Positions 36,549-62,418 of a stretch of DNA of 64,000 nt are shown piece after piece. Made by a program: the position numbers and the translations under genes. The notes under the pieces are model-generated. The model saw only the letters and a list, made by a program, of their open reading frames with translations. It searched no databases and had not been told where the DNA came from. Positions within the stretch are counted from its first letter, which is position 1. Each line of letters starts with the position of its first letter. Origin of the DNA: Lachnoclostridium sp. (GTDB lineage: Bacteria; Bacillota; Clostridia; Lachnospirales; Lachnospiraceae); NCBI GenBank assembly GCA_021770065.1, contig JAETRR010000017.1, positions 1 through 64,000 on the forward strand. The letters are read 5' to 3'.

Positions 36549-37007
36549 ATGCATATTGTAGAGATTGGTAAAGGAGTCGAGGCTCTTGCAGTGAAGCTGC
36601 GGGATTTGATTCTGCCGGAAAACGTCAGCATTTATCTGCTTGGGCTTGCTGCAGAGGAACAGAGTGCATTTGAGCGCTGGGTTGGGGAATATACCAGACG
36701 GCTGACAATGGAATTGAAACGAGAGTATGAGATGCCTGGTGATGAACAGCGTAAGTGCTTGATCATTGTGCTGACAGAGAATATGGAGGATCCTTTTACT
36801 AAAGCGGCTGCTGATGGATGCTGGGAATCGTTACGTGGTATAGTGCATGTGCTTACATTAGAAAAACGTGCGAATCACTTGATATTGAATCTGATCAGGG
36901 GCGGAAAAGAAGATATGAAAAGTATTATAGATGCCGTGGTATTTTTATCAGAGGAACATACTGATTTCTGTGCAGGCTGTACATTTGATGTGAGGGATTG
37001 GAAATGA
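36549..37007 (+). CDS. Degenerate SDR-like protein
   Basis: A 152-residue protein that I cannot name. GTGGAGG lies nine bases before the ATG at 36549. The last third reads SIIDAVVFLSEEHTDFCAGCTFDVRDW, which looks like the C-terminal end of short-chain dehydrogenases (a-x-x-VxFLxS...TGxxxxVDGG). The Gly-rich cofactor motif and the Y-x3-K catalytic pair are absent. It overlaps the next gene, a complete SDR, by four bases (ATGA). It may be a non-catalytic partner or a decayed paralogue of that enzyme. Confidence 0.65.
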   Translation: MHIVEIGKGVEALAVKLRDLILPENVSIYLLGLAAEEQSAFERWVGEYTRRLTMELKREYEMPGDEQRKCLIIVLTENMEDPFTKAAADGCWESLRGIVHVLTLEKRANHLILNLIRGGKEDMKSIIDAVVFLSEEHTDFCAGCTFDVRDWK

Positions 37008-37729
37008 GAGCTGCAATTGTTGGTGCCGGGGGTGCAATTGGAAGTGCCGTAGTAAAACGGTTTGTTGACGCAGGATGCTGGGTGATGGGAATTGACATTT
37101 CAGAAGAGGCCTTGGATCGGGCTGCAGAACTTTCAGAGCGAATGGTTTGTGATCTGATGAATGATAAACAACTTATTAAGCTGCGGGAAAAAATGGAGCA
37201 GCAAAATGTGGATTGCATCATCACGACGCATGGTATTGACGGATCCGCACCGCTAAGTGAGCTGAGTGAAGAATTCTATGAAAAAGTGCTGAATATTAAC
37301 ACCCTTGGCATATACAGGCTGTTTCGCATGGCACTGCCGCTGCTGAAGACTGCAGGAGGAAGCTTTACAATCGTGATTTCTCAGGCAGGGCTAAAGCCAG
37401 AGGCAAACAATGCAGCATACTGTGCATCGAAATATGCATTATCCGGATGGGTACGGTCTATTTCTGACTATGCGGCAAAGGAAGGTGTTACAGTCCGGGG
37501 CATTTGTCCCGGGTGTATCGGTACTCCGCTTTATTATTCGGCACAGAAACAGTTTGCAGCTTCAATTGCAATGCCATTGAATGAGTGGCTTATGAAGAGG
37601 GAGCAAAATATCCCTCTTGGAAGAATAGCAAGTACGGCGGAGATTGCAGAATGCATCTGGTTTTTAGCTCAGAAAAATGTGAGGCGTCCCATATTGCTCG
37701 TACCGACTGGCGGAGAAACCTTGGTATAA
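37004..37729 (+). CDS. Short-chain dehydrogenase/reductase
   Basis: A 241-residue NAD(P)-dependent oxidoreductase. The cofactor loop GAGGAIGSAVV lies at residues 8-18, the catalytic Ser in VISQAG near 125, and Tyr/Lys in YCASKYALSGW near 140-150. These enzymes interconvert alcohols and ketones on sugars or hydroxy acids. The acidic DIS at the end of the second strand (about residue 31) favours NAD over NADP. It is coupled to the SDR-like gene upstream and followed by the sugar ABC transporter, so it probably acts early in the catabolic route. Confidence 0.88.
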   Translation: MRAAIVGAGGAIGSAVVKRFVDAGCWVMGIDISEEALDRAAELSERMVCDLMNDKQLIKLREKMEQQNVDCIITTHGIDGSAPLSELSEEFYEKVLNINTLGIYRLFRMALPLLKTAGGSFTIVISQAGLKPEANNAAYCASKYALSGWVRSISDYAAKEGVTVRGICPGCIGTPLYYSAQKQFAASIAMPLNEWLMKREQNIPLGRIASTAEIAECIWFLAQKNVRRPILLVPTGGETLV

Positions 37730-37806
37730 GTTTTGGAAAAGAATCGGAAATGTGCACACCGAATCTGATATATAGAAACAAAAAACAAAAACAGGAGGAA
37801 GTATTG

Positions 37807-38838
37807 ATGAAAAATGTATTTAGAAATGTAGTTCTATTTTTACTGTCAATTGTGATGGTATTTACAATGGCAGCATGTGGAAAATCAGAGCAAAACGCAA
37901 ACAGTGAGACTGGCGGGGAGGCTGCTGAGGAGCCTGAGGAAACTGGTGCTTCGGAAGAAGCCGCAGGAGAAAGCGATGGCATGAAGATTGCTTATCTTAT
38001 CAACAGCACTTCAGATGACTTCCAGGTTAAGGTTATGGATGGCGCAAAAGCTTACTGTGAAGAGAATGGTATCGAGTTTTTAGTTGCGGATGCTCAGGAT
38101 GATTCTTCAAAACAGCTTTCACAGCTGGAGTCAGTGTGTGAAGACGGCGTGGATGCAGTTATTTGTGTAATCGTAGATACCAGCGGCGGCAGCGGTCCGC
38201 TCTACCGTGAGATGTGTGATGAGTATGGAATCCCTCTTATTGGTGTCTGCCGGTATCTTGATGAGGCGCATGTAAATGTTTCTACGGATCCACAGCAGGC
38301 GGGTATTATTCAGGGCCAGTACCTGGCTGAAGCTATGGAGGGAAAAGGAAATCTTGCAATTCTGCTTGGTATTTTAGGCAGTAATGATGCGGTAATCCGT
38401 ACAGATGCGATCAAGAGTGTTCTGGCTGATTATCCGGATATTAAGATTGTATTCGAAGAGACTGGCGAGTGGCAGCGGGATCAGGCCATGACTGTTACAG
38501 AAAACTGGCTTCAGAGCGGCACACAGATCGATGCGATTGCGGCAAATAATGATGAAATGGCTGTGGGCGCAGCAATGGCTGTTTCTGCTGCTAATATGAA
38601 AGACAGCATCATAGTTGCCGGCATTGACGGCAATATCACAGCCCTGCAGGAGATGCAGAATGGGCTGATTGATGCAACCGTTTATCAATCTGCATCTGGA
38701 CAGGGTGAGCAGGCGGTCATCTCCGCTGTGAAGGCAATTGAGGGCGGATATGATCTTAGCGCAGAAAACTGGGAGCAGATTCCTTTTGAGCTTGTAACAC
38801 CGGATAACTGTCAGGAATACCTGGATTCTTGGAAATAA
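37807..38838 (+). CDS. Sugar ABC transporter substrate-binding lipoprotein (RbsB-like)
   Basis: A 343-residue lipoprotein with a signal peptide and lipobox MAACGKSEQ (acylated Cys near residue 22), an acidic Glu/Ala linker and a periplasmic-binding type 1 domain starting KIAYLINSTSDDF. The segments VDAVICVIVDTSG and AIAANNDEMAVGAAMAV are typical for CUT2 sugar-binding proteins. AGGAGGAAGTATTG precedes the ATG at 37807. It works with the ATPase and permease that follow. Related systems import ribose, xylose, galactose or inositol; the locus content favours a polyol such as inositol. Confidence 0.92.
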   Translation: MKNVFRNVVLFLLSIVMVFTMAACGKSEQNANSETGGEAAEEPEETGASEEAAGESDGMKIAYLINSTSDDFQVKVMDGAKAYCEENGIEFLVADAQDDSSKQLSQLESVCEDGVDAVICVIVDTSGGSGPLYREMCDEYGIPLIGVCRYLDEAHVNVSTDPQQAGIIQGQYLAEAMEGKGNLAILLGILGSNDAVIRTDAIKSVLADYPDIKIVFEETGEWQRDQAMTVTENWLQSGTQIDAIAANNDEMAVGAAMAVSAANMKDSIIVAGIDGNITALQEMQNGLIDATVYQSASGQGEQAVISAVKAIEGGYDLSAENWEQIPFELVTPDNCQEYLDSWK

Positions 38839-38918
38839 GACACTTGATTGAGTGTGGGTAAAGATTGCCGGGTCGCCCATGTAATTACAATGGGCGGCCC
38901 GGTGTAATGAGAGGATAG

Positions 38919-40424
38919 ATGAAGAATATGGGTGCGCAGAAGAATGAATATATGTTGGAAATGAGCGGCATTTCCAAAGCGTTTCCAGGCGTAAAGGCGT
39001 TGGACAACGTAGAACTAAAAGTGAAACCAGGCACTGTTCATGCGCTGCTCGGGGAGAATGGAGCAGGAAAATCGACGCTGATGAAGATTCTGATGGGAAT
39101 TTATGAGGCCGATGAGGGTACGGTAACATTCAAGGGGAAACTTTTACGTGGACGCCGGAATGTGCGTGAAACTATGGATGTAGGGATTTCTATGATTCAC
39201 CAGGAGCTGGCTTCCTTTTCTCAGATGACGATTGCGGAGAATATTTATCTGAATCGTGAGCCCGGGAAAGGACTTTTCGTTGATGATGCGCAGATGAATC
39301 AGGATACGATAGAGCTGTTTGAGCGCATTGGTATGGATATTAATCCCAACACGAAAATGAGAGATATCACAACAGCGTATGCACAGATGGTAGAGATTGC
39401 AAGAGCAATTTCTTTAAATGCTGATTTGATTATTATGGATGAGCCGACTTCTGCTATTACGGATAAGGAAGTTGAGATGCTGTTCAATGTAATTCGGCGT
39501 CTTAGGGATGAAGGACGTTCTATTATCTATATTACACATAAGATGGATGAAATATTTAAGATTGCGGACGAAATTACGGTTTTGCGGGATGGTCAGTTTG
39601 TTGGAGCGAAGCCTATCAGTGAATTGGATAGTGATCAGATTGTCAGTATGATGGTTGGCCGTCAGTTGGTGCAGCTGTTCCCGCCTAACGAAGCAGTCCC
39701 GGGTGAGACAGTGATGAAAGTGGAACATTTAAGCCGTAAAGGCGAATTTGATGATATTTCCTTTGAAGTTCATAAAGGTGAGATCCTTGGCATCGCAGGA
39801 ATGATGGGGGCCGGCCGTTCTGAAATTATGAGTGCGATATTTGGTATTACCAAACCAGATTCTGGTACGGTAACAGTTAATGGGAAAGAACTTTCGCTTG
39901 GACAACCCAAAGAGGCTATTGAGGCGGGCATGGCAATGCTTACTGAAGATAGAAAGGGTACAGGTCTGTTTTTAGGCTTGTCTGTTAATGATAATATCGG
40001 AATGCCGAGCTTAAGGGATTTTGTGAGTAAAGGCCTGCTTTCACAAACAAGATTAAATAAAGCCTGTGAGGTTCAGATTGAGGCGCTGAGGATCAAGACG
40101 CCGTCTGGAAAAACAGTGATCCGCGGCCTGTCTGGTGGAAATCAGCAGAAGGCACTTTTGGGACGATGGCTGTACTGTAAACCGGAGATCCTGATTATCG
40201 ATGAACCGACCAGAGGGATTGATGTCGGTGCAAAGTATGAAATTCACAAGATCTTATGCGATTTGGCAAAAAATGGGACCTCTGTCATTATGGTTTCGTC
40301 AGAGATGCCTGAAGTTATAGGAATTAGTAATCGCGTTCTTGTAGTTTCCCAGGGACATATTACAGGTGAGCTTCAACGAGAAGAGCTGACACAGGAAACC
40401 ATTATGAAATATGCGGCAGTTTAA
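38919..40424 (+). CDS. Sugar ABC transporter ATPase, two-domain (RbsA-like)
   Basis: A 501-residue CUT2 ATPase with two nucleotide-binding domains. The first has GENGAGKST near residue 48 and IIMDEPTSAI near 170; the second has the degenerate GMMGAGRSE near 292, SGGNQQKALLGRW near 405 and LIIDEPTRGIDVGA near 428. It powers the importer. GAGAGGATAG precedes the ATG. Confidence 0.94.
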   Translation: MKNMGAQKNEYMLEMSGISKAFPGVKALDNVELKVKPGTVHALLGENGAGKSTLMKILMGIYEADEGTVTFKGKLLRGRRNVRETMDVGISMIHQELASFSQMTIAENIYLNREPGKGLFVDDAQMNQDTIELFERIGMDINPNTKMRDITTAYAQMVEIARAISLNADLIIMDEPTSAITDKEVEMLFNVIRRLRDEGRSIIYITHKMDEIFKIADEITVLRDGQFVGAKPISELDSDQIVSMMVGRQLVQLFPPNEAVPGETVMKVEHLSRKGEFDDISFEVHKGEILGIAGMMGAGRSEIMSAIFGITKPDSGTVTVNGKELSLGQPKEAIEAGMAMLTEDRKGTGLFLGLSVNDNIGMPSLRDFVSKGLLSQTRLNKACEVQIEALRIKTPSGKTVIRGLSGGNQQKALLGRWLYCKPEILIIDEPTRGIDVGAKYEIHKILCDLAKNGTSVIMVSSEMPEVIGISNRVLVVSQGHITGELQREELTQETIMKYAAV

Positions 40425-40441: not shown

Positions 40442-41407
40442 ATGAAGAAGGACAAAGTGAGACAAAATATTTTCAAAAAAGTACCAAACTGGTGCGGTAC
40501 TTTGGTGATCCTTGTGCTGATTATGATTGCGTTTGGCATTGCAAATGGCAGCTTTCTTACAGTAAAAAATGTAATGAATATTTTGCGTCAGGTTTCTGTG
40601 ACCGGCATTATTGGTCTTGGTATGACAATGGTTATTGTTACGGGCGGTATTGATCTGTCTGCCGGATCTGTTCTGGCATTTGCCGGGATGCTTGTGGCTA
40701 TACTTGCCCAGGGAGGACATCCGGCAGCAGCAGTTTTGGTAGGAATCGCAGTTGGTACGGGCTGCGGTATTATTAACGGAACTGTTATTTCCTTAACGGG
40801 TATTCCTCCGTTTATTATGACACTTGGTATGCAGCTATGTGCCAGAGGTGCGGCAAACCTGGTTACAGGCGGCTATCCTGTAGCGGGATTGGATGATTCT
40901 TTCAGAGTTATTGGCGGAGGCAGTTTGTTTAAGTTTCTTCCAATTCCAGTTATTATTTATGCGATACTTGCAATTATCAGTTTTTTTGTTTTGCAGAAAA
41001 CGGCATTTGGAAAAAAGATTTATGCCCTTGGCTGCAACGAGAGCGCAGCGCATTTGTGTGGTGTGAATGTGAAGAAAGTCAGGACACTGGTTTATACTTA
41101 TGTAGGTTTCATGACGGGTGCTGCGGCAGTTATTATCACGTCACGTGTGAATGCGGGTAATGCTTCTGTTGGATTAAACTTTGAGTTTGACGCAATTATA
41201 GGCGCAGTTATAGGGGGCAGCAGTCTTGCTGGCGGTTCCGGAACAATTATCGGTACGATTATTGGCGCACTCATTGTTGGATGTTTGGATAACGGCTTGA
41301 CGCTGCTCGGCATATCCGCATATTACCAGCAGATACTGAAAGGTATGCTCATTGTCATATCTGTTATTGTGGATACATATCGGAATAAGGCATCACAGCG
41401 TGCCTAA
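40442..41407 (+). CDS. Sugar ABC transporter permease (RbsC-like)
   Basis: A 321-residue membrane protein with eight to ten hydrophobic helices. The motif VTGGIDLSAGSVLAFAGM near residue 62 and GSSLAGGSGTIIGTIIGALI near 258 are the hallmarks of CUT2 permeases. GAGAGGTATAAAC precedes the ATG. It completes the SBP-ATPase-permease set. Confidence 0.94.
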   Translation: MKKDKVRQNIFKKVPNWCGTLVILVLIMIAFGIANGSFLTVKNVMNILRQVSVTGIIGLGMTMVIVTGGIDLSAGSVLAFAGMLVAILAQGGHPAAAVLVGIAVGTGCGIINGTVISLTGIPPFIMTLGMQLCARGAANLVTGGYPVAGLDDSFRVIGGGSLFKFLPIPVIIYAILAIISFFVLQKTAFGKKIYALGCNESAAHLCGVNVKKVRTLVYTYVGFMTGAAAVIITSRVNAGNASVGLNFEFDAIIGAVIGGSSLAGGSGTIIGTIIGALIVGCLDNGLTLLGISAYYQQILKGMLIVISVIVDTYRNKASQRA

Positions 41408-41521: not shown

Positions 41522-42547
41522 ATGGAAAAAATTAGAGTTGGTGCAATTGGTGTAGGCCGTATGGGTATTTGTCATGCAGAGTCCATAGCATACCGTACAC
41601 CGGACGCAGAGCTTACTGCTGTGTGTGATTTAAATGCGGAATTGGCTGAATCTACCGCAAGGAGATTGGGAGCAAAGAAGTTTACCACAGATTATCATGA
41701 GATTATGAATGATCCGGATATTGATGCAGTTTTGATTACAAACACATCTGCTGCCCACTGTGAATGCATTAAAGCAGCATGTGCAGCTAAAAAGCATATT
41801 TTCTGTGAGAAACCAACAGGTATTAACTTTGAAGAGTTAAATGAAATCGATGAGGCTGTTGCCGCCAATCCGGGTAAGGTAATTCAGGTTGGCTTTTTAA
41901 GACGCTTCGACAAGTCGATGCGGGATGCGAAGGAACGTGTGCTCAGAGGCGAGATCGGAAAGGTTGTTAAGGTAAAGAGCGTTACAAGAGACCCTGGCAA
42001 ATACAGAGAATATTTTGACAAGTTTCTTCCGGGATCCGGCGGTATCTTTTATGATATGAATGTTCACGATTTTGACCTTTGCAGGTGGTTTGCAGAGTCA
42101 GAGGTTAAGAAAGTCTTTTCATCAGGCGGCGTGTATGCATTTGACGAGTTTGCTGATTTTGGTGACCTGGATGCCAACTCCGTTACACTGCAGTTTGAGA
42201 ACGGGGTAATGGGTGAAGCAGAGGGCAACCGTCTTGCAGGCTGCGGCTATGACGTTTGGGTAGAAATCGTCGGCACAAAGGGTTCTATCGATGTGAAATG
42301 CGGCCGCAATACATTTGTAGTAGTTAAGGACGAAAATGGCATTAAAGAAGAGGGATGTCCCTGGTATTGGGAGCGTTTCGGCGACGCTTACACTGCTGAG
42401 ATTGTTGCATTTATTGATGCTGTCAAGAATGGCAAACCGTCTCCGTGCAACACTACGGACGCAAGAAGAGCTGTTGAGGTTGCTGATATTGCGAAGAAAT
42501 CTTTCGATCAGGGTATTGCGATTGAGAACTATCATCTTGCTAAATAA
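41522..42547 (+). CDS. Gfo/Idh/MocA oxidoreductase, inositol 2-dehydrogenase-like
   Basis: A 341-residue NAD(P)-dependent dehydrogenase. The Rossmann motif GAIGVGRMGICHAESI is at the N-terminus, the catalytic Lys in CEKPTGINF near residue 95, and the conserved GGIFYDMNVHDFDLCRWF segment near 170 carries the Asp and His used by IolG-type enzymes. Family members oxidise myo-inositol to scyllo-inosose, or related polyols and sugars. GGGAGGTATTAAAG precedes the ATG at 41522. It follows the importer and precedes a TIM-barrel epimerase, as in inositol loci, but the exact polyol cannot be proven from motifs. Confidence 0.87.
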   Translation: MEKIRVGAIGVGRMGICHAESIAYRTPDAELTAVCDLNAELAESTARRLGAKKFTTDYHEIMNDPDIDAVLITNTSAAHCECIKAACAAKKHIFCEKPTGINFEELNEIDEAVAANPGKVIQVGFLRRFDKSMRDAKERVLRGEIGKVVKVKSVTRDPGKYREYFDKFLPGSGGIFYDMNVHDFDLCRWFAESEVKKVFSSGGVYAFDEFADFGDLDANSVTLQFENGVMGEAEGNRLAGCGYDVWVEIVGTKGSIDVKCGRNTFVVVKDENGIKEEGCPWYWERFGDAYTAEIVAFIDAVKNGKPSPCNTTDARRAVEVADIAKKSFDQGIAIENYHLAK

Positions 42548-42600: not shown

Positions 42601-43611
42601 ATGCATATTTCATTGATGACAGACAGCCTGGGACAGCTTCCTTTTGAGCAGATGCTGGATGTAGCAGCTCAGTGCGGAATAGAAACATTGGAGATTCCAA
42701 CCGGCGGATATTCCAATGCGCCGCATCTGGACATTGATAAACTGCTTGCAAGTGCCGATGCACGCAAAGCTTATATAGGAGCAATTGAAAGCCGCGGTTT
42801 GAAGCTTGAAACATTAAACTGCAACGGAAATCAGTTGTCACCTGATGCAACAGGCAAGAGGGATGCGAAAACCGTTGAAAAGACATTCCGCCTGGCGGCT
42901 GAGTTTGGAGTTGAAAAAATTACAATGATGTCAGGTCTTCCTGGAGGCGGCCCTGATGCCAAATATCCAAACTGGGTTATCTGCTGCTGGCCGCCTGTAA
43001 TGTTGGATATGATGGATTATCAGTGGAATGAAGTTGGGATTCCTTATTGGGAGAAAACGGTTAAATTGGCCGAAAGCTACGGGATCAGGCAGATTGCCCT
43101 GGAAGTGCATCCTACAGGGATTGTTTATAACGTACCGACACTGCTGCGCCTGCGGAATGCTGTAGGTCCCATGATTGGTGCAAACCTGGATCCTGGTCAT
43201 CTCTGGTTTATGGGCATGGATCCTTTGAAGGCCGCTGCTGCGCTTGGAAAAGAACATGCAGTTTATCATGTACATGCCAAAGATACCCATCTGGAAGATG
43301 AGGTCGTTGCTCTTGCAGGGGGACATGAAACCGCTGCCTACTTAAGCACACCTCGCTACGAACGGTCCTGGACATATTGTACACTTGGATACGGGCATGA
43401 TGTATTCTGGTGGAAACAGTATATTATGGCGCTGCAGGAATTTGGTTATGATGGAGCTATGAGTATTGAAATGGAAGACATAATCATGCCGAATGTTGTG
43501 GCCGTTGCTAAATCCGCAGATTTGCTGAAAGAGGCTATTCCCAGGGATTATTCCCGGGATTTCCCCGAAGAATTGCTGCAGGTTAAAGGGCTGGGGTTTG
43601 ATATTAACTAA
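42601..43611 (+). CDS. Sugar phosphate isomerase/epimerase (AP endonuclease 2-like TIM barrel)
   Basis: A 336-residue TIM-barrel enzyme. Metal ligands are visible in the usual order: Glu in ALEVHPTG near residue 163, Asp in ANLDPGHLW near 197, His in YHVHAKDTH near 223 and Glu in MSIEMED near 288. This superfamily includes IolE, IolI and the Thermotoga IolO, which epimerises 5-keto-L-gluconate. Length and position after the IolG-like gene fit an IolO- or IolE-like role. AAGGAGTGTAAGT precedes the ATG. A strong terminator follows, ending the importer operon. Confidence 0.88.
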   Translation: MHISLMTDSLGQLPFEQMLDVAAQCGIETLEIPTGGYSNAPHLDIDKLLASADARKAYIGAIESRGLKLETLNCNGNQLSPDATGKRDAKTVEKTFRLAAEFGVEKITMMSGLPGGGPDAKYPNWVICCWPPVMLDMMDYQWNEVGIPYWEKTVKLAESYGIRQIALEVHPTGIVYNVPTLLRLRNAVGPMIGANLDPGHLWFMGMDPLKAAAALGKEHAVYHVHAKDTHLEDEVVALAGGHETAAYLSTPRYERSWTYCTLGYGHDVFWWKQYIMALQEFGYDGAMSIEMEDIIMPNVVAVAKSADLLKEAIPRDYSRDFPEELLQVKGLGFDIN

Positions 43612-47368: not shown

Positions 47369-48283
47369 TTAGGCGTTACTGCTGTGCTGTTTCTTGTATT
47401 TCGTGGGCGAGCAGTGCATATATTTGCGAAATACTTCTGCATAATAGCTTGGCCCTGAAAAGCCTACAGCGCAGGCGATTTCGGTTATAGAAAGATTACC
47501 CTCACAGAGCATGGGGAGGCTCTGTTCAATTCGGTAGCGGAGTAAGAAATCAAAAGGTGTCTGATGAAGCGTCTGCTTAAACAAGCGGCAGAATTCACTT
47601 TTACTGATATGGCAGGAGCCGGCTATCTCATCCAGCGTGATGGGCTCGGCATAGTTGGTATAGATAAAAGAAAGAGAGTTTTTCAGCCGTTCCAAATGCC
47701 GTGTTTTAATAGGATTAAGAACAGCTTCGTTTTTAGAGATAAATTGTAAATAATCCTCATAATAATAGAACCAGAGTTCAGTTAGAATTGCAGCAATATG
47801 AAGCTCATATCCGGGATTATGCAGACCTGAATATTGAATTAGCTTTTCAATGAGCTCCGCAATATGGAGATGCTCCTTGGATTCACTGTGAAAGAGAGCA
47901 TAGGCATAATGAGAAGCCTCTAAGATAGGGGAGACATACTGCGATTTTATAAGGCTGTTTTCAAAACCATAAATCAAAGCAGGGTTAAACATAAAACAGA
48001 CATAAACACAGTCCGAGTCCTGATATTGTTCTCCGGCGTGAAGGGTGTTTGTGTTTACAAAAATGCAATCGCCCTTTTTTAAGTGTAAAGCAGATTGATT
48101 GACCATATAGGTCATTTCGCCGTCCAATATGTAAGTTGCCTCAATTTCAGAGTGCCAATGTCCTGGAAAGCTGAAAAATGGATATTGGGACAGAATAATA
48201 TACATAAGATTTATAGGAAAACGGAAATCTCCCTGCGGGTTCAGCTCTCTCATATTTTTATCAATGATAATTTCTCTATTCAT
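47369..48283 (-). CDS. AraC-family transcriptional regulator
   Basis: A 304-residue regulator. The N-terminal cupin-like sensor domain has HWHSEIEATYILDGEMTYMV near residues 41-60 and KKGDCIFVNTNTLHAG near 70-84. The C-terminal domain has two helix-turn-helix motifs (ITLDEIAGSCHISKSEFCRL and LSITEIACAVGFSGPSYYAE, about residues 218 and 267). It lies between the two halves of the catabolic locus and is divergent from the transketolase operon, so it is the obvious candidate to bind the AATATTGTTAT motifs and activate the locus in response to a pathway compound. Confidence 0.92.
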   Translation of the reverse strand: MNREIIIDKNMRELNPQGDFRFPINLMYIILSQYPFFSFPGHWHSEIEATYILDGEMTYMVNQSALHLKKGDCIFVNTNTLHAGEQYQDSDCVYVCFMFNPALIYGFENSLIKSQYVSPILEASHYAYALFHSESKEHLHIAELIEKLIQYSGLHNPGYELHIAAILTELWFYYYEDYLQFISKNEAVLNPIKTRHLERLKNSLSFIYTNYAEPITLDEIAGSCHISKSEFCRLFKQTLHQTPFDFLLRYRIEQSLPMLCEGNLSITEIACAVGFSGPSYYAEVFRKYMHCSPTKYKKQHSSNA

Positions 48284-54907: not shown

Positions 54908-56323
54908 ATGAGTACGACAACAAATGTAGAAGAAGATATTGCATATGTAACCGGCCTGGTAAAGCGTGCACATGCGGCGCAGAAGATCGCTGATGGTTTT
55001 ACGCAGGAATATGTAGACAAACTGACACGTGAAATCGGCTGGGCCCTGGTACAGCCGGAGACTGTGAATAAGATTGCAAAGTTCTGCCTTGAGGAGACAA
55101 GAATGGGAACCTATGAGGCAAAGCAGAATAAGCTTTTTAACAAGGTCCGCGGTGTTTTAAATGATATTAATCCCCTGAAATCCGTGGGAGTGATTGAAGA
55201 AAATAAAGAGCTTGGCATCCGCAGACTGGGAAAACCGGTAGGCGTGATCGGTTCTCTGATTCCGACAACACAGCCGGAGCTCTGTCCGGCAACTCAGGCC
55301 ATGCTTACGGTGAAGGCAAGAGACGCAATTGTCTTTTCTCCCCATCCCCGTTCCCAGAAGACAACGCTTATGGTTACAGAAGTAATCCGCCAGGTGTTAA
55401 AGAAGAACGGCGCACCGGAGGATCTGGTTATCTGCATCGAAAAGCCGACCATGACAAAGAGCCAGGAGCTTATGCGCCAGGCAGACATGGTAATTGCTAC
55501 CGGCGGAGCGGGCATGGTAAAGGCCGCATACTCTTCTGGAACGCCGGCTTACGGCGTGGGCGTTGGAAATGCGGTTGTTGTGATTGACGAGACGGCCGAT
55601 TTGAAACAGGCTGCACGGAATGTACATATCAGTAAGGTATTTGACTATGCTTCCGGCTGTTCCTGTGATAACTCCATTGTTGTACAGGAAAGCATTTATG
55701 ACGAGTTTATGGAATGTCTGAAGGCAGAGGGCGCTTTTATGACGAAGAAGTCCGGTTATGAGAAAATGCGTAAGGCGTTATGGCCGGAGTGGCCTGAGAA
55801 CCATCAGCTGAACCGTGACATCGTAACCCAGCCGGCGAAGCGCATTGCCGAAATCGCAGGAATCGAGGGAGTTACGGATGAGACGACGATGATTCTCGTT
55901 GAGGAAGACGGCTATGGGTTTGAGCATCCTTTCTCAGGGGAGAAGCTGTGCGTAGTTCTTACCGTATTTAAGTACAAAGAGTTCCAGGAGGCAATTGATA
56001 TCGTAAACGGAATTCATGATTACATGGGCGCCGGCCATTCCTGCGGAATCCAGACAAAGAATGATGATCATGCAATGCAGCTTGCGTTAAATACTCATAC
56101 GACACGTGTTATGATTAACCAGGCACAGAGCGGAGCGAACGGCGGTTCCTGGACCAACGGAATGCCATTCACAGGCTCCCTGGGATGCGGCACCTGGGGC
56201 GGCAATATCGTATCGGAAAACATTACATTGAAGCATTTCTTGAATAATACCTGGGTGGCTGCGGCGATTCCGTCCCGTCAGCCCAGCGATGAGGAAATTT
56301 TCGGGGATGCTATGAAGGCGTAA
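54908..56323 (+). CDS. Aldehyde dehydrogenase, probably acylating
   Basis: A 471-residue aldehyde dehydrogenase. GVIGSLIPTTQPELCPATQA near residue 115 and the catalytic Cys in FDYASGCSCDNSIVVQE near 250 resemble the CoA-acylating acetaldehyde and succinate-semialdehyde dehydrogenases (EutE, SucD, AdhE type) rather than hydrolytic ALDHs. ATGATDxxxA-like switching loops are absent. GGAGAAAGGAAATTTGG precedes the ATG at 54908. It would convert an aldehyde to an acyl-CoA or the reverse, supplying CoA for the transferase, or disposing of electrons. Confidence 0.87.
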   Translation: MSTTTNVEEDIAYVTGLVKRAHAAQKIADGFTQEYVDKLTREIGWALVQPETVNKIAKFCLEETRMGTYEAKQNKLFNKVRGVLNDINPLKSVGVIEENKELGIRRLGKPVGVIGSLIPTTQPELCPATQAMLTVKARDAIVFSPHPRSQKTTLMVTEVIRQVLKKNGAPEDLVICIEKPTMTKSQELMRQADMVIATGGAGMVKAAYSSGTPAYGVGVGNAVVVIDETADLKQAARNVHISKVFDYASGCSCDNSIVVQESIYDEFMECLKAEGAFMTKKSGYEKMRKALWPEWPENHQLNRDIVTQPAKRIAEIAGIEGVTDETTMILVEEDGYGFEHPFSGEKLCVVLTVFKYKEFQEAIDIVNGIHDYMGAGHSCGIQTKNDDHAMQLALNTHTTRVMINQAQSGANGGSWTNGMPFTGSLGCGTWGGNIVSENITLKHFLNNTWVAAAIPSRQPSDEEIFGDAMKA

Positions 56324-56605: not shown

Positions 56606-57763
56606 ATGCATCCGGATAGCTTGAGTTTAAGATGCTCCATTGTACGTGGAGGAACCAGTAAAGGAATTTATATTATGGAGAATGAACTGCCAAAGGATGC
56701 AGATTCCCGTAAAAAGGTGATCCAGGCGGTTTTCGGAAGCCCGGATCAGCGTCAGATAGACGGACTTGGGGGAGCGGACACATTGACCAGCAAGCTGGCA
56801 ATTGTGGGGCCCCCGACCAGGCCGGACGCAGATGTAAATTATACCTTTGCGCAGGTAGGAATTGATCGGGATGTTGTTGACTTTGGCGGAAATTGCGGAA
56901 ACATTTCTTCGGGGGTAGGCCCCTTTGCCATTGATGCCGGCCTTGTCCCGGCAGTGGAGCCAGTCACGACGGTAAGAATCTATCAGACGAATACAGATAA
57001 GCTTCTGATAGCGGAGGTTCCTGTCAAGGATGGAAAAGCCTGTACGGAGGGTGATTTTTTCATTGACGGAGTGCCGGGAACCGGGGCAAAGATTACTATG
57101 GATTTTTCTGACACAGTCGGAGCTGCTACGGGGAAATTGCTGCCCACGGGAAATGCAGCGGATCAGATTGAAGTTGATGGAAAAGACTATGCCGTGTCCA
57201 TAGTAGACGCCGGAATTCCCGTAGTATTTATTGAGGCAGAAAGTCTGAATCTGAAAGGAAATGAAAGTGCGGCGGAGATTGATGCGGATAAAGAACTGCT
57301 GAAGCTTATTGAGGCCATAAGGGGACGCTGCGCCGTCTTAATCGGAATGGCCGGGTCTCCCGGGGATGCGCTGGAAAGCAGTCCTTATGCACCATTCTTT
57401 GCAATTGTCAGCAGTCCCCAGGGGTATGTGACGCCTTCCGGACAGGAAGTAAAAGAGGAAGATATTGATATCACATCAAGGCTTCTTTTTATGCAGAAGA
57501 TGCATAAGACTTATCCGGGAACCGGTTCTATGGCCACGGCTGCCGCGGTCCGTGTGCCGGGAAGTATTCCGAACAAAAAGCTCAAAAGGGCGGCGGATGG
57601 GCGCACTCAGATTCATATCGGACATCCTGCAGGAATCATGGATGTAGAAAGTGCTGCACACCAGGAGAATGGTGAGCTTGTAATAGAGAGACTGGCGTTT
57701 TACAGAACAGCCCGGAAGATTATGGACGGACTGGTCTACATAAAGAAGTCTATACTTTCTTAA
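56606..57763 (+). CDS. PrpF-family isomerase
   Basis: A 385-residue protein of the PrpF/4-oxalomesaconate tautomerase/methylitaconate isomerase family. LRCSIVRGGTSKGIYI near residue 7 is the signature N-terminus; VDFGGNCGNISSGVGPFAI near 92 holds the catalytic Cys of the diaminopimelate-epimerase-like fold, and GSMATAAAVRVPGS near 308 the second lobe. These enzymes shift the C=C bond in unsaturated di- and tricarboxylates. AATAGGAGG precedes the ATG at 56606. It stands directly upstream of a LeuCD-type hydro-lyase, as in nicotinate fermentation of Eubacterium barkeri. Confidence 0.9.
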   Translation: MHPDSLSLRCSIVRGGTSKGIYIMENELPKDADSRKKVIQAVFGSPDQRQIDGLGGADTLTSKLAIVGPPTRPDADVNYTFAQVGIDRDVVDFGGNCGNISSGVGPFAIDAGLVPAVEPVTTVRIYQTNTDKLLIAEVPVKDGKACTEGDFFIDGVPGTGAKITMDFSDTVGAATGKLLPTGNAADQIEVDGKDYAVSIVDAGIPVVFIEAESLNLKGNESAAEIDADKELLKLIEAIRGRCAVLIGMAGSPGDALESSPYAPFFAIVSSPQGYVTPSGQEVKEEDIDITSRLLFMQKMHKTYPGTGSMATAAAVRVPGSIPNKKLKRAADGRTQIHIGHPAGIMDVESAAHQENGELVIERLAFYRTARKIMDGLVYIKKSILS

Positions 57764-57781: not shown

Positions 57782-59065
57782 ATGGGAAAAACAATATCTG
57801 AGAAAATACTGGCGGAAGCTTCCGGTCAGAAAGAGGTATCTGCAGGGCAGATCGTGTGGGTGCAGGTTGGCCGTGCGATGATGGATGACATTCTGGGCCC
57901 CCGTGTCGAGATAGCGGAGAAGCTCAGGGAATTGGGAAATAAAGTCTGGGATCCAGAGAAGGTTGTTATTATTTCGGATCATTATACGCCGCCGGCAAGT
58001 ATTAAGCAGGCCGAGATTGTAAAGTTCACAAGAGACTGGGCCAGGGAATACGGCGTAGAGAAATATTATGAGTTTGCCGGGCCCTGCCATCAGGTTATGG
58101 CTGAGACGGGAAATGTTATTCCGGGAACGGTCGTCCTTGGAACCGATTCGCATACCTGTATGGGAGGCGCACTGGGAGCATTCGCAAGCGGCGTCGGTTC
58201 TACGGAAATGCTGGGCATTCTGGCTGTGGGGCAGACCTGGCTTAAGGTTCCGGAAACCATAAAAGTTGTCTGGGAAGGTGCTTTACGGGACGGCGTTATG
58301 GCAAAGGATATATCCTTAAAAACAATTGGCACCATCGGCCATGCAGGGGCAACCTATAAGGCTGTGGAGTATATGGGAAGCGTGATTTCGGCGCTTCCTA
58401 TGGATGAGCGTATGGCGATTACCAATATGGCCGTGGAAATGGGGGCTAAGGTCGGGCTTATGCCCACCGATGAGGTTACCAAGGCTTATCTTGAGCGCAT
58501 TGGAGTGAAGGATTACAAGGTATATTCCAGCGATGAAGATGCGGCCTTTTGTGAAACCTATGCCTTTGATGCGTCTGCACTTACTCCGCAGGTGGCCTGT
58601 CCCCACAGTGTTGACAATGTGACTGATGCAGGGAACGTGAGGGAGGTACCGATCCATCAGGCATATCTTGGTTCCTGTACCGGCGGAAGATTAAATGATA
58701 TTAAAATGGCGGCACAATTGTTAAAGGGGAAGAAGATACATTCCGGACTGCGTATGCTGGTTTCTCCTGCGTCAAAACCAATCTGGAAAGCGGCGGATGA
58801 GGCGGGGTATCTTAAGATTCTGGCAGAAGCGGGAGCAGTGATTCTGGCACCGACCTGCGGCGTATGTGTAGGACTTCACAGCGGACTGATTGCGGGGGGA
58901 GAGAACTGCATTTCGTCCAGTAACCGCAATTTTATCGGCCGTATGGGAAGCAAACAGGGAAATATTTATCTCGGTTCACCCCTTACGGTGGCAGCAAGCG
59001 CCGTTACGGGACATATCACTGATCCGAGAGAATTATTACAGGGGGATCCGACATGGGTGAATTAA
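57782..59065 (+). CDS. Aconitase-family hydro-lyase, large subunit (LeuC/DmdA-like)
   Basis: A 427-residue large subunit. GTDSHTCMGGALGAF near residue 120, YLGSCTGGRLNDI near 296 and APTCGVCVGLHSG near 356 supply the three cysteines of the catalytic 4Fe-4S cluster. The length is that of the 3-isopropylmalate/2,3-dimethylmalate dehydratase group, not of full aconitase. The next gene, which overlaps by 13 bases, encodes the small subunit. With PrpF upstream, the substrate is probably a substituted malate/maleate or citrate-like acid rather than isopropylmalate; no other leucine genes are present. Confidence 0.92.
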   Translation: MGKTISEKILAEASGQKEVSAGQIVWVQVGRAMMDDILGPRVEIAEKLRELGNKVWDPEKVVIISDHYTPPASIKQAEIVKFTRDWAREYGVEKYYEFAGPCHQVMAETGNVIPGTVVLGTDSHTCMGGALGAFASGVGSTEMLGILAVGQTWLKVPETIKVVWEGALRDGVMAKDISLKTIGTIGHAGATYKAVEYMGSVISALPMDERMAITNMAVEMGAKVGLMPTDEVTKAYLERIGVKDYKVYSSDEDAAFCETYAFDASALTPQVACPHSVDNVTDAGNVREVPIHQAYLGSCTGGRLNDIKMAAQLLKGKKIHSGLRMLVSPASKPIWKAADEAGYLKILAEAGAVILAPTCGVCVGLHSGLIAGGENCISSSNRNFIGRMGSKQGNIYLGSPLTVAASAVTGHITDPRELLQGDPTWVN

Positions 59066-59541
59066 CAGGAAAAGCATTAAAATATGGTGATAATATTAAC
59101 ACGGATATTATTTCTCCTCCCCAGTACATGGAGTTAAGCATTGAGGAGGCTTCCGCATACAGTATGTCGGCGGTTGACCCTGAGTTTTCTGCCAGGGTGC
59201 GTCCGGGTGATTTCTTTGTGGCGGAGAATAACTTGGGTTCGGGTTCCAGCAGAGAGACCTCTCCTCTTACCTTGAAATATCTCGGCATTCACGTAGTTGT
59301 GGCACGCTCTTATGCGAGAATCTTTTACAGGAATTGTATCAATGTAGGCATTATTCCTCTGATCTGCGAGAAAAGTAATCAGATTGAGGATGGGGATGAA
59401 TTGAAGGCGGATATTGAAGGCGGCCGGATCTTAAACCTCACAAAAAACGAATCCTATGAGTGCGAGAGCCTTCCGGAGCATATTATGGCAATTATCCACG
59501 TAGGAGGACTTTTCCAATATTTGAAGGGGAAGGGGAGGTAA
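59053..59541 (+). CDS. Aconitase-family hydro-lyase, small subunit (LeuD/DmdB-like)
   Basis: A 162-residue small (swivel) subunit. GDNINTDIISPPQYM near residue 11 and GSGSSRETSPLTLKYLGI near 62 are the family marks; the catalytic Ser sits in the GSSRE loop. VVARSYARIFYRNCINVG near 82 is also conserved. It overlaps the large-subunit gene and together they form the dehydratase. Confidence 0.92.
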   Translation: MGELTGKALKYGDNINTDIISPPQYMELSIEEASAYSMSAVDPEFSARVRPGDFFVAENNLGSGSSRETSPLTLKYLGIHVVVARSYARIFYRNCINVGIIPLICEKSNQIEDGDELKADIEGGRILNLTKNESYECESLPEHIMAIIHVGGLFQYLKGKGR

Positions 59542-59546: not shown

Positions 59547-60239
59547 ATGCGCTATACAAAGAAATATGAAGCTATGCGCTGTATTAACAGAACCAAAGGA
59601 TCCGGACCGGCGCCGATTCCGCAGGAAGGATCTTACGATCAGGTTAAGCAGATTGAAGAAATCAGCGGTTTGAGCCACAGTGTGGGAACCTGTGCGATGA
59701 AACAGGGAGCATGTAAGCTGACGCTGAATGTAAAGAACGGGATCATCCAGGAGGCGCTCGTTGAAGTCCTTGGATGCTCCGGCATGACGCAGTCCGCACT
59801 TATGGCTGCGGAAATTCTTCCCGGAAAGACATTGCTGGAGGCATTGAATACGGATTTGGTCTGCGATGCAATTAATGTTGCCATGAGAGAATATTTTCTT
59901 AATATGGCATATGGAAGAACTCAGACAGCGTTTTCAGAGGGCGGGCTTGATGTCGGTGCAGCGATAGAGGATTTGGGATATGGAGCTAAGACCCAGGTTG
60001 GCACTGGATATGGAACACTTGGAAAGGGCCCGCGTTATCTGGAGGTTACAGAGGGCTATGTCACACGAGTGGGGCTTGATGAACAGGATCGGATTATCGG
60101 TTACGAATATGTAAACATTGGCAGGCTGATGGAACAGATTAAGGCTGGTGTTGACGCTAATGAGGCTCTTGAACATGCGAAGGGGGCTTATGGAAGATTC
60201 CATGAGGCGGCTTCCGTGATTGATCCAAGGGAGGAATAA
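59547..60239 (+). CDS. NifU-like iron-sulfur scaffold protein
   Basis: A 230-residue protein with a NifU/IscU-like core: VGTCAMKQGACKLTLNVKNG near residue 48, LVEVLGCSGMTQSALMAAEI near 75 and DLVCDAINVAMREYF near 107 give conserved cysteines. The C-terminal half is an extension specific to this group. GGGAGGTAAGCAGG precedes the ATG at 59547. It is always seen, in my recollection, with a GGGtGRT protein, which follows after two bases. Directly behind a Fe-S hydro-lyase, a role in building or repairing that cluster is likely. Confidence 0.82.
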   Translation: MRYTKKYEAMRCINRTKGSGPAPIPQEGSYDQVKQIEEISGLSHSVGTCAMKQGACKLTLNVKNGIIQEALVEVLGCSGMTQSALMAAEILPGKTLLEALNTDLVCDAINVAMREYFLNMAYGRTQTAFSEGGLDVGAAIEDLGYGAKTQVGTGYGTLGKGPRYLEVTEGYVTRVGLDEQDRIIGYEYVNIGRLMEQIKAGVDANEALEHAKGAYGRFHEAASVIDPREE

Positions 60240-60241
60240 GG

Positions 60242-61243
60242 ATGGCGGCATTTACAAATTATGAACAGCGTAAGGTGACGATTCAGAATTTTCTGAATAA
60301 ATATCAGATAGCAGGCCTGGATGCGGCGCAGGAAATCTGCACTCAGCATGGGCTGGATGTATTTGCGATCGTTAGGGGGATTCAGCCCATCTGCTTTGAT
60401 GATGCATGCTGGGCCTATACGGCAGGCGCGGCGGCAGCGCTTAACAGCGGTTTGAATTCTGTCAGTGAAATAGCGCTTCTTCTGGGGGAGGCTCTTCAGT
60501 CGTTTTGTATCCCCGGATCCGTTGCTTATGAGAGACAGATCGGCATTGGCCATGGAAAACTTGCATCTATGGTTCTTTCGGACGAAGTACACTGCTTCGC
60601 ATTTCTGGCGGGCCATGAAAGCTTTGCGGCTGCCGAAGGAGCGCTGGGAATTGCCCGTTCAGCGAATAAGGTCCGGAAAACTCCTTTGCAGGTTATACTT
60701 CTCGGGATGGGGAAAGAGCCGGCCGATATTATTGCCAGAGTCAATGGATTCACTTATGTAGAAACGGCATTTGACTTTAAGACGGATGAGCTTTCTATTT
60801 TGAGTGAGACACCTTATTCCGGCGATGAGCGCGCGAAGGTTCGCTGCTTTGGAGCGTTTGAACCCAGAGAAGGCATAGCAGTCATGATCCATGAGCATGT
60901 GGATGTGTCCATTTCCGGCAATGCCACACATATGATACGCTTTCAGCATCCGGTTGCCGGTGCATATAAGAAATACTGTAATGATCATGGCCGCAATTAT
61001 TTTGCCTGTGCCTCCGGCGGCGGAATCGGGCGGACCCTGAATCCCGATGATACGTCGGCAGGGCCTTCCTCTTATGGACAGACGGATTTGATGAGCCGCA
61101 TGTATGCGGATGCGACATTTGCAGGCTCTTCCTCCGTACCGGCCCACGTAGAGATGATGGGATATGTAGGCATGGGCAATAACCCTATGGTTGGAGCGAC
61201 TGTGGCTTTGGCTGTTGAGCTGGAAAACAGGAAGCAGGGGTAG
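60242..61243 (+). CDS. GGGtGRT family protein
   Basis: A 333-residue protein named for its motif, which here reads GGGIGRT near residue 260 (in ACASGGGIGRTLNPDD). FCIPGSVAYERQIGIGHGKL near 88 and FLAGHESFAAAEGALGIA near 120 are further conserved blocks. The biochemical function is unknown. It follows the NifU-like gene after two bases, the usual pairing in anaerobes, which ties it to iron-sulfur handling. AGGGAGGAATAAGG precedes the ATG. Confidence 0.88.
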   Translation: MAAFTNYEQRKVTIQNFLNKYQIAGLDAAQEICTQHGLDVFAIVRGIQPICFDDACWAYTAGAAAALNSGLNSVSEIALLLGEALQSFCIPGSVAYERQIGIGHGKLASMVLSDEVHCFAFLAGHESFAAAEGALGIARSANKVRKTPLQVILLGMGKEPADIIARVNGFTYVETAFDFKTDELSILSETPYSGDERAKVRCFGAFEPREGIAVMIHEHVDVSISGNATHMIRFQHPVAGAYKKYCNDHGRNYFACASGGGIGRTLNPDDTSAGPSSYGQTDLMSRMYADATFAGSSSVPAHVEMMGYVGMGNNPMVGATVALAVELENRKQG

Positions 61244-61261
61244 CGTTGGAGGGTTATAGGG

Positions 61262-61738
61262 ATGAATTACGGTGTTTTTGAAGCATGCGGAAGGGCAAAA
61301 GGTGAACAGGAGACAGATCAGGCATTTATGGAACGCATAATAAAGAGCAGCTTTGCTTTGGCCGGGGATACGCAGAAGAGGATTAACGATAAGATGGATG
61401 CGTCCGTGGAGAAATGCAGTTATGAGAATAAAATGCTGACGCTTAAGTTTCGTGTGAAGGACTGGATGCTGAATCCGGCCGGCACCCTCCACGGAGGGCT
61501 TCTTACTACCGCCTGTGATATGACTATGGGGATGCTGGGAAGATTCTATAAAGAATCAGCTTCCTGTGTCACGGTTCAGTTAAATATGGCTTTTCTTCGA
61601 AGTATTGACAGGGGCAGCGAATTTACGGTGGAGGCTCATGTGGAAAAGCTGGGCAGAACCCTTTTGTTTTTAAGCGCCAGGGTTATGGATCCCGTTACCG
61701 GAAAGCCTGCCGGGGAGGCAGCAGCGGTTTTTATGTGA
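61262..61738 (+). CDS. PaaI-like hotdog thioesterase
   Basis: A 158-residue hotdog-fold protein. The helix motif NPAGTLHGGLLTTACDMTMG near residue 75 is the PaaI signature, with HGG and the acidic Asp as catalytic candidates. VQLNMAFLRSIDRGSEFTVE follows. Such enzymes hydrolyse acyl-CoA thioesters. At the end of a CoA-dependent operon it probably releases stalled CoA esters. TTGGAGGGTTATAGGG precedes the ATG. Confidence 0.87.
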   Translation: MNYGVFEACGRAKGEQETDQAFMERIIKSSFALAGDTQKRINDKMDASVEKCSYENKMLTLKFRVKDWMLNPAGTLHGGLLTTACDMTMGMLGRFYKESASCVTVQLNMAFLRSIDRGSEFTVEAHVEKLGRTLLFLSARVMDPVTGKPAGEAAAVFM

Positions 61739-61758
61739 TATTACGGAGGATGTTTTAA

Positions 61759-62418
61759 ATGATTCATTCGGTAATTTTTGATTTGGACGGGGTACTTATT
61801 GACAGCGAAGAAATCTATTTTCGCCTATACAGCAGCCTTCTTATGAAATTTGGATATTCATTAGAAAAACAAGAGTATGCCCAATGCTACAGCGGAAAAA
61901 CGGCTTATGAGAATATGGTAAAGATAATTGAGCGCTTTGGGCTGCCCATAGATGTTTCTTATGGATTGGAACACATGAAAATGGAGGAAAAGAAATATCT
62001 TGAGGAGGGAATTCCCTTAAAAACCGGAGCGAAATATTTGCTGGAATATCTAAAAGCCAATGGATATAAATGTGCGATGGCTACATCCAGTACACGCCAG
62101 AGAGCGGAACAAATTCTTAAGTTTCACGGAATAAAGGATTATTTTCAACGTATGATTACGGGTGAAGAAGTTAAAAAAGGGAAGCCTGAACCGGATATTT
62201 TTATTGCATCCTGCAAAGGACTTAAGGAAAAGAGGGAAAATTGTATTGTGATTGAAGACAGTGAAGCCGGCATACAGTCTGCCTATGCTGCACAGATAAA
62301 AGTACTCTGTGTTCCTGATTTAAAAGTACCTGGAAGAAAATATCAAATTATGACGGAGGCAGTGCTTTCATCACTTACTGAGGTTCCGGATTATCTGGAG
62401 AAAAACAGAAATGGTTAA
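61759..62418 (+). CDS. HAD-superfamily phosphatase or phosphomutase (beta-PGM-like)
   Basis: A 219-residue HAD hydrolase. Motif I is FDLDGVLIDSEEIY at residues 7-20, motif II is ATSSTRQRAE near 114, motif III Lys lies in KKGKPEPDIF near 148 and motif IV is IVIEDSEAGIQSA near 168. The cap is of the small helical type found in beta-phosphoglucomutase and sugar phosphatases. TACGGAGGATG precedes the ATG. It ends the catabolic operon and may dephosphorylate a sugar or acid intermediate. Confidence 0.9.
   Translation: MIHSVIFDLDGVLIDSEEIYFRLYSSLLMKFGYSLEKQEYAQCYSGKTAYENMVKIIERFGLPIDVSYGLEHMKMEEKKYLEEGIPLKTGAKYLLEYLKANGYKCAMATSSTRQRAEQILKFHGIKDYFQRMITGEEVKKGKPEPDIFIASCKGLKEKRENCIVIEDSEAGIQSAYAAQIKVLCVPDLKVPGRKYQIMTEAVLSSLTEVPDYLEKNRNG

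Follow-up and report, generated by a model that had tools for sequence, protein, structure and literature searches.

The window analysed here is a stretch of 64,000 nucleotides from Lachnoclostridium sp. (assembly GCA_021770065.1, contig JAETRR010000017.1, positions 1 to 64,000). Between positions 36549 and 62418 it contains a large catabolic locus, in which genes of inositol-type ring opening adjoin a split transketolase and a set of genes for CoA-dependent acid cleavage. All enzyme classes named in the initial annotation were recovered on the forward strand in Pfam and NCBIfam searches, mostly with the identities given there; it did not list an AraC-type regulator on the reverse strand, nor the NifU-like and GGGtGRT genes (59547-61243).

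The ring-opening part begins with a ribose-type ABC importer. Its substrate-binding protein (37585-38838; PF13407, 178 bits) has an unsure start, the domain beginning near residue 135 of the open reading frame (ORF). The RbsA-type ATPase (38919-40424) contains PF00005 in two stretches and matches the MglA model with 611 bits, under the cut-off of 828, and an RbsC-type permease follows (40442-41407; PF02653). Next to the importer are an IolG-like inositol 2-dehydrogenase (41522-42547, ORF from 41474) and a xylose-isomerase-like TIM barrel of the IolO/IolE type (42601-43611; PF01261), for which the only NCBIfam match is a weak one, to IolE (20 bits). An old-yellow-enzyme (OYE)/2-enoate-reductase-type flavoprotein with a cysteine cluster (43846-45846; PF00724, PF07992 and a Cys motif) precedes IolM, a scyllo-inosose 3-dehydrogenase (46055-47242) that passes the NF041097 equivalog cut-off of 450 with 501.1 bits. 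The AraC-type regulator (47369-48283, reverse strand; PF12833, PF02311) divides the two runs of forward-strand genes. The second run opens with TKa, the thiamine diphosphate (ThDP)-binding N-terminal half of the transketolase (48622-49542; PF00456, with a GDG...N motif), and TKb, its C-terminal half (49545-50492; PF02779, PF02780). It continues with a second Zn-dependent dehydrogenase, ADH2 (50521-51597; PF08240), and the IolN-type ring-opening hydrolase (51621-52724), a creatininase-family protein of a distinct long subfamily that scores 299.7 bits with NF041098, over the equivalog cut-off of 245. With IolM and IolN both above their cut-offs, the proposed inositol-type ring opening is supported.

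The acid-cleavage part follows on the same strand. The family III CoA-transferase CoAT3 (52750-53949, ORF from 52696; PF02515, 442 bits) has succinate-hydroxymethylglutarate CoA-transferase 9br6 among its top solved relatives, and the HMG-CoA-lyase-type C-C lyase, HMGL (53949-54878, ORF from 53892; NF004283, 325.4 bits, cut-off 246), has kept the HMG-CoA lyase motifs PRDG, HxH and GGCP. The acylating, CoA-dependent aldehyde dehydrogenase (54908-56323, ORF from 54851) reaches 492.5 bits with NF047625, the model of SauS (acylating sulfoacetaldehyde dehydrogenase), short of the cut-off of 600. Then come a PrpF-type double-bond isomerase (56606-57763, ORF from 56561; PF04303, 408 bits), the LeuC-type large subunit of a [4Fe-4S] hydro-lyase (57782-59065; NF001614, 550.6 bits, cut-off 385) and a LeuD/DmdB-type small subunit with a distinct loop (59053-59541; TIGR02087, 161.4 bits, cut-off 108.95). 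A NifU-like scaffold (59547-60239; TIGR03419, 21.8 bits, far under the cut-off), a second, divergent copy of a GGGtGRT-family protein (60242-61243; PF14057), a hot-dog thioesterase (61262-61738; PF03061) and a HAD phosphatase resembling beta-phosphoglucomutase (61759-62418; PF13419) complete the locus.

Counted from likely starts with ribosome-binding-like sites, the gaps from TKa to the aldehyde dehydrogenase are 2, 28, 23, 25, -1 and 29 bases. Because these gaps are so short, IolN and CoAT3 probably belong to one operon. A gap of 282 bases separates the aldehyde dehydrogenase from PrpF, and from there to the HAD phosphatase all gaps are 20 bases or less. The spacing thus agrees with a pair of operons running in the same direction, with the ring hydrolase and the CoA-transferase together in the first. 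Promoter and terminator scans gave only chance-level signal.

We tentatively favour, with a little less than even confidence, reading the locus as an island for cyclitol degradation in which two conserved modules have a transketolase in common, since IolN with transketolase and the acid module each recur elsewhere and are here packed into a tight operon. Behind it stand the gene identities, the tight spacing of the genes, the fact that each module recurs, and one other case in which a transketolase goes with the acid module; each reaction of the route is proposed from the enzyme family concerned. In the first module, a neutral cyclitol would be imported and oxidised twice, by IolG and by IolM or ADH2, after which IolN would open the 1,3-diketone ring to a straight 5-keto acid ending in CO-CH2OH. 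The split transketolase would transfer this two-carbon end to a sugar phosphate, leaving a shortened acid. In the second module, the acid would be handled by the logic of citramalate/citraconate breakdown: PrpF may shift the double bond, LeuCD may add or remove water, the CoA-transferase would form the thioester, and the HMG-CoA-lyase-type enzyme would release acetyl-CoA and a 2-oxo acid. The acylating aldehyde dehydrogenase could join an aldehyde to the CoA pool. The locus parts belong to known enzyme families; their combination is a new variant.

The recurrence of these genes was followed in several samples. IolN, LeuC and HMGL were each searched in 398 genomes of the phylum, which carry the same handles and are taken as the same draw. 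The IolN model matched 53 of the 398 at E <= 1e-30 (own genome included), 40 of them over the cut-off, and Thermotoga maritima was the sole match among 14 control genomes. Matches over the cut-off form a main group at 490-572 bits and a second group at about 299-323 bits, which includes the IolN of the window; conserved Glu, His and Asp residues are found across 17 relatives. Within the order, 3 of 295 genomes, own included, have IolN at E <= 1e-30. The subfamily of the window was followed through 79 loci at 59-71% identity to its IolN, from Clostridia, Spirochaetes, Planctomycetes, Synergistetes and others; these are the best 79 of 578 confirmed in a scan of GTDB contigs capped at 80, and constitute the less biased set. 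The IolN loci compared number 106 altogether, or 98 distinct ones once identical loci are merged, 16 with transketolase and 82 without. This larger set includes biased picks: L087 (its preview L026 showed transketolase), L086 (its preview L021 showed CoAT3), L089 (a contig with two IolN genes), L122 (reached via HMGL), L124 (the second IolN of genome G382) and L125 (the IolN of genome G499). A gene label in the counts is the best tblastn match among the query proteins under the stated E-value limit, not a full annotation. Many loci are truncated where their contig stops, which makes absences lower bounds. L127 is nearly identical to L131, and L181 and L204 are contigs of one metagenome-assembled genome (MAG), so they are not independent; the enrichment tests ignore phylogeny.

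Searching the 79 loci by tblastn with the window proteins gave IolG in 44, IolM in 40, RbsA in 39, ADH2 in 30, the split transketolase in 13, CoAT3 in two (28% identity) and the flavoprotein in one. HMGL, the aldehyde dehydrogenase, PrpF, LeuC, LeuD, NifU and GGGtGRT were found in 0/79. Relatives of ADH2 (46-52% identity) lie near IolN elsewhere, for example in L144, L149, L154 and L179, and the flavoprotein has a 49% identical copy in L149, roughly 5 kb away from IolN.

The tie between transketolase and ring hydrolase that the initial annotation had drawn recurs in these 13 of the 79 loci, with the nearest transketolase half 55 bases to 7.3 kb from IolN. In five of the six top loci (L127, L128, L129, L131 and L132) the distance is at most 1.4 kb; the sixth, L130, is a contig of 3.5 kb. 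The genome of the window holds ten transketolase copies, eight of which, the window's included, entered a tree of TKb. There the window's TKb falls in a clade (support 100/99) with IolN-linked copies of one Spirochaete MAG, and it is nearer to these than to any of the seven other copies of its own genome.

GAPDH-like and PGK-like genes occur in 6 of the 16 distinct IolN loci with transketolase (L087, L089, L143, L155, L178 and L179) and in none of the 82 without; within the 79-locus set the figures are 4/13 and 0/66 (p 0.0005). The nearest solved relatives of the GAPDH-like protein are GAPDHs of archaeal type. LarA, of the lactate-racemase family, is found in 5/16 IolN loci with transketolase against 1/82 without. 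In L178 (12564-16144), IolN and a split transketolase lie with GAPDH-like, PGK-like and LarA-like genes; a LarA-like gene is beside GAPDH and PGK in L155, L178, L179, L087 and L089, and was not seen in L143. Together, the GAPDH, PGK and LarA genes look like a short glycolysis-like route acting on what the transketolase makes, and may represent a new pathway. In L044 the order TKb-ADH-TIM barrel-IolN is followed by a family I CoA-transferase and an aldehyde:ferredoxin oxidoreductase (AFOR), although AFOR is not enriched beside transketolase (1/16 against 2/82 IolN loci). GAPDH and AFOR, both aldehyde-oxidising, fit a transketolase that cuts CO-CH2OH off a keto-hexonate, the remainder being an aldehyde acid of four carbons; GAPDH and PGK near transketolase and IolN are what would be expected if the transketolase makes such an acid. 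An engineered transketolase is reported to make tartaric semialdehyde with 5-keto-D-gluconate as donor (PMC12016104).

Other C-C cleaving enzymes are found at IolN loci without transketolase, with a transaldolase-family gene in 6/82 and a KDPG aldolase in 10/82, never both. Each is found in 0/16 loci with transketolase, an absence that by itself is non-significant (p 0.36 and 0.59). The transaldolase-family gene lies near IolN in L203, L205 (Dorea sp. D27), L144, L159, L165 and L174. In L203 and L205 a tartronate-semialdehyde-reductase-like gene, ECH, a family III CoA-transferase, acyl-CoA dehydrogenase and ETF accompany it, and loci of this type suggest a transaldolase variant of ring-opening catabolism.

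Close LeuC relatives are rare, being found in 8/398 genomes at E <= 1e-125; close HMGL relatives are found in 17/398 at E <= 1e-75, both counts including the own genome. Among the seven other genomes of the LeuC clade, four have a close HMGL, where 0.28 would be expected (hypergeometric p 6e-5), and three have IolN (p 0.051). Further close HMGL copies lie in a different setting, with all or part of a set of ECH and acyl-CoA-dehydrogenase genes (L231-L234 and L236). Relatives of PrpF are present in 21/299 genomes at E <= 1e-60, own included. In the trees, the window's PrpF is sister to the copy of G499 (100/98), joined next by those of L215 and L090 (98/98), and its LeuC belongs to a clade of eight rows (100/99) apart from nicotinate-type loci. 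The NifU-like/GGGtGRT pair is 69/67% identical to that of G499 and 64/60% to the other copy of its own genome, whose GGGtGRT gene is on contig C55; because it is nearer to the former, the pair seems to be part of the acid module, and perhaps serves Fe-S maturation of LeuCD.

The lower part of nicotinate fermentation uses Mii/PrpF and DmdAB/LeuCD, and it was to this type that PrpF and the dehydratase had been compared at the outset. We presume L091, L093, L095, L098, L099 and L101-L103 to be nicotinate-fermentation clusters. The window's PrpF is 48-58% identical to the PrpF of these eight LeuCD-bearing loci, which are among twenty loci fetched. In L091, the only one of the eight checked for it, a B12-binding gene lies between PrpF and LeuCD. 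In an alignment, the LeuD loop of the window, NTDIISPPQYMEL (pattern NTDxISPxQ[YF]ME), differs from the loops of the eight loci. With PrpF and LeuC outside the nicotinate-type clades, a different LeuD loop, and neither a B12 mutase nor a B12-binding gene among the locus genes scanned, nicotinate fermentation was rejected.

Two loci elsewhere show how the acid module is combined. In G499, a genome of another family, contig C107 carries CoAT3-HMGL-GarR-TKa-TKb and ends inside TKb, while contig C94 begins inside TKb and continues with ADH-LeuC-LeuD-PrpF-NifU-GGGtGRT. The two ends share an exact overlap of 119 bases within TKb, in frame. If the contigs join, G499 has transketolase, CoAT3, HMGL, LeuCD, PrpF, NifU and GGGtGRT in one run. 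This run has no IolN beside it, the IolN of G499 being on C235, and no match to the aldehyde dehydrogenase was found on C107 or C94. The TKb of G499 is in a different clade from the window's, so the pairing of transketolase and acid module was made with non-orthologous enzymes. G499 is the strongest reason to think that the two cooperate, and one further locus thus stands behind that idea. L215 contains the run PrpD-TctC-TctB-size gene-TctA-OYE-LeuC-LeuD, two genes of a SucC/D-like acid:CoA ligase, HMGL, PrpF and PrpR. This corresponds to the flavoprotein, LeuCD, acid activation, HMGL and PrpF of the window, but a tricarboxylate importer is present and ring-opening genes are absent. Because L215 repeats the set of the window, the CoA-dependent acid cleavage module is real and recurrent, and this, with the order on C107 of G499, bears out the hydroxy-acid cleavage module of the initial annotation. 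Of its further expectations, a shared gene order was partly borne out, as G499 has, together with transketolase, seven of the ten genes that run from the CoA-transferase to the HAD phosphatase. The link between the two halves is upheld by that pairing and weakened by their occurring apart, which is half of the comparative outcome that the initial annotation had named as refuting it. A single pathway for the whole locus is likewise qualified, since HMGL, the aldehyde dehydrogenase, PrpF and LeuCD accompany IolN in 0/79 loci, and G499 and L215 have the acid genes without adjacent IolN. The idea that a branched acid is rebuilt found no direct support.

Several points weigh against a two-module island. 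TIGR04380 is the best-matching model of the IolG gene, yet the score is 328.6 against a cut-off of 355. The IolN-linked transketolases are scattered over the TKb tree (6 changes, at least 5 of them forced; 67/500 shuffles as low); hence they are not one family, and transketolase came to IolN loci on several occasions. The two modules stand together in 0/79 IolN loci, the flavoprotein has no clear role, and tartaric semialdehyde, the product expected from inositol, is no obvious substrate for PrpF, LeuCD or HMGL. The published transketolase precedent is a mutant enzyme, and in G499 the union of the two contigs depends on their overlap. The own genome has two KDPG aldolases outside the locus, and therefore the known tagaturonate route may work instead. 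Finally, HMGL is missing in the congeners (0/15 at E <= 1e-40, with 7/145 relatives positive, own genome included), so that the locus may be a recent patchwork; given this and the presence of IolN in only 3/295 genomes of the order, it was probably assembled by transfer.

Two unrelated pathways may simply be neighbours, an inositol route (import, IolG, IolM, IolN and transketolase) and an acid route of the itaconate/citraconate/citramalate type (CoAT3-HMGL-aldehyde dehydrogenase-PrpF-LeuCD), which we regard as possible though doubtful. Each half does exist without the other, HMGL, PrpF and LeuCD being absent from the 79 loci, and CoAT3-HMGL pairs lie near citrate-lyase-like genes, a MatC/CitMHS-type carrier or a TRAP permease in L117, L118 and L120, as would suit dicarboxylate use. 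The boundary between the halves would, however, cut one probable operon, in which IolN ends 25 bases before CoAT3 and CoAT3 overlaps HMGL by 1 base; G499 has transketolase with the acid module and no Iol genes beside it, and the locus genes scanned include no recognisable carboxylate importer. It is improbable, in our estimate, that the locus leads through tartrate. There the transketolase would yield tartaric semialdehyde, which the aldehyde dehydrogenase and CoA-transferase would turn into tartrate with a gain of acetyl-CoA, as a CoA counterpart of the GAPDH and PGK of sister loci, and LeuCD and PrpF would lead on to oxaloacetate. The aldehyde-oxidising partners of transketolase (GAPDH-like and PGK-like in 6/16 against 0/82 distinct loci, counting L087, which was fetched after a preview had shown transketolase), the AFOR and family I CoA-transferase of L044, and LarA, from a family of hydroxy-acid epimerases (5/16 against 1/82), all speak for such a route. 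It leaves the HMG-CoA lyase unexplained, and we know of no LeuCD-type tartrate dehydratase; a fumarase-type hydro-lyase is encoded elsewhere in the own genome, the two G499 contigs have no match to the aldehyde dehydrogenase, and AFOR, at 1/16 against 2/82, is not enriched.

A quinate-like substrate would unite all steps, although this is speculative, and we consider it very unlikely that the whole locus is one anaerobic ring-opening pathway for a cyclohexane carboxylate of the quinate/shikimate type. The two dehydrogenases would then form a 3,5-diketone (a 1,3-diketone), IolN would open it to a ketol-bearing homologue of citramalate/citraconate, PrpF and LeuCD would set the hydroxyl, and CoAT3 and HMGL would release acetyl-CoA; the transketolase would remove the two-carbon ketol end of a 2,4-dioxo acid as pyruvate leaves. 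By reasoned chemistry, the predicted opened product is a substituted citramalate/citraconate that would suit the second module. In L122, from the same family as the window, a single run comprises 3-dehydroquinate (DHQ) dehydratase, an OYE protein, a TIM-barrel protein, two Zn-dehydrogenases, IolN and HMGL, and IolN lies with carboxylate-type carriers and acyl-CoA genes in L086, L152 and L184. Against this, the importer of the window is of sugar type, IolM scores over the inosose cut-off, and no DHQ dehydratase was found among the locus genes scanned; among the 98 distinct IolN loci only L122 has one, and that locus was found through HMGL, not randomly. For a transketolase step on a 2,4-dioxo acid no precedent is known to us.

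L122 itself (571-10865, genome G732) encodes TRAP/MFS transport, a type I 3-dehydroquinate dehydratase, OYE, a TIM barrel, two Zn-dehydrogenases, IolN and HMGL, and is a candidate anaerobic quinate/shikimate ring-opening locus. L184 (Oscillibacter valericigenes Sjm18-20) and L152 combine IolN with genes for acyl-CoA dehydrogenase, ETF and a carboxylate permease of the TRAP type. Carboxylate-type importers or CoA-transferase/acyl-CoA genes are seen repeatedly at IolN loci, namely L086, L125, L152, L184, L203 and L205. In L121 (9553-14149, genome G749 of the same family), genes for an HMGL-type lyase, a ThDP-dependent enzyme of the decarboxylase/ligase type and an acylating aldehyde dehydrogenase are consecutive.

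Among characterised systems, the inositol pathway of T. maritima reportedly runs through IolG, IolM, IolN and IolO (Rodionova et al., 2013). The two-module locus proposed here resembles it in having IolM and IolN equivalogs over their cut-offs and IolG-like and TIM-barrel epimerase-like genes, but the window's IolN belongs to a longer, distinct subfamily, the split transketolase and the CoA-dependent acid module are added, and no genes of the KDG route were found among the locus genes scanned. A search of the own genome with the GAPDH-like protein of L178 gave no match at E <= 1e-5, a result without positive control that shows little. The classical Bacillus-type iol pathway was rejected, as no IolE is present in the locus: among the locus genes, to which this search was confined, the best score with the IolE equivalog TIGR04379 was 20.3 bits against a cut-off of 290. 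Split transketolases act in pathways for apulose 4-phosphate (AptAB) and sulfofructose (sulfo-TK). Like these, the window has a two-gene transketolase in a catabolic operon, which would shorten an unusual ketose; unlike them, its transketolase is linked to ring-opening genes and an acid module, with no sugar kinase among the genes scanned.

Itaconate degradation uses a CoA-transferase, itaconyl-CoA hydratase and (S)-citramalyl-CoA lyase (PMC12290011). It shares with the window CoA activation followed by a lyase reaction to acetyl-CoA and a 2-oxo acid, whereas the lyase of the window is of HMG-CoA lyase type and LeuCD, with PrpF, would hydrate the acid in its free form. The known itaconate pathway (Ict-Ich-Ccl) was rejected, with neither an itaconyl-CoA hydratase nor a CitE-type citramalyl-CoA lyase among the locus genes scanned. 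The inositol-to-propionate pathway of Anaerostipes, which uses a 3-oxoacid CoA-transferase (PMC8355322), is likewise an anaerobic inositol conversion by Firmicutes with a CoA-transferase; in the window, that enzyme is of family III and no IolE equivalog is present in the locus. In agreement with the initial annotation, which knew of no described pathway with this set, no characterised pathway with these genes was found in the literature searched (mostly open-access, with few subscription journals), and among the matches listed there was no described case of a transketolase variant of inositol breakdown or of genes of quinate fermentation.

Cyclitols such as inositols and quinate are abundant in plant matter, and to our knowledge their anaerobic cleavage after ring opening is known for few organisms. 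The loci compared here suggest that what IolN has opened can pass to any of at least three cleavage modules (KDG aldolase, transaldolase and transketolase), in much the way that sulfoglycolysis has its variants, and that a CoA-cutting acid module goes with one transketolase variant. If true, this would add routes from cyclitols to acetyl-CoA that we have not found described, and would give a use to PrpF/LeuCD/HMG-CoA-lyase cassettes of unknown role. Were a quinate-type substrate the right one, the locus would represent a non-aromatic fermentation of hydroaromatic plant acids.

At the edges of the locus, an ORF at 63025-63762 on the reverse strand is fructosamine-kinase-like; its match to the family model is mostly in the C-terminal part, and it may be shortened. 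The GC content of the region from 36 to 52 kb is 43-46%; of the nine 4-kb stretches to the left of this region, eight have a higher value. The stretch at 12001-16000 has a GC content of 36.5%, with all other 4-kb stretches of the window at 43-52%. Ahead of the importer are an ORF (36534-37007) with no Pfam or NCBIfam family at E <= 0.001 and a short-chain dehydrogenase (36998-37729). Directly upstream of the locus, at 34587-35869, a sigma-70 family factor adjoins an RsgI-type anti-sigma protein.

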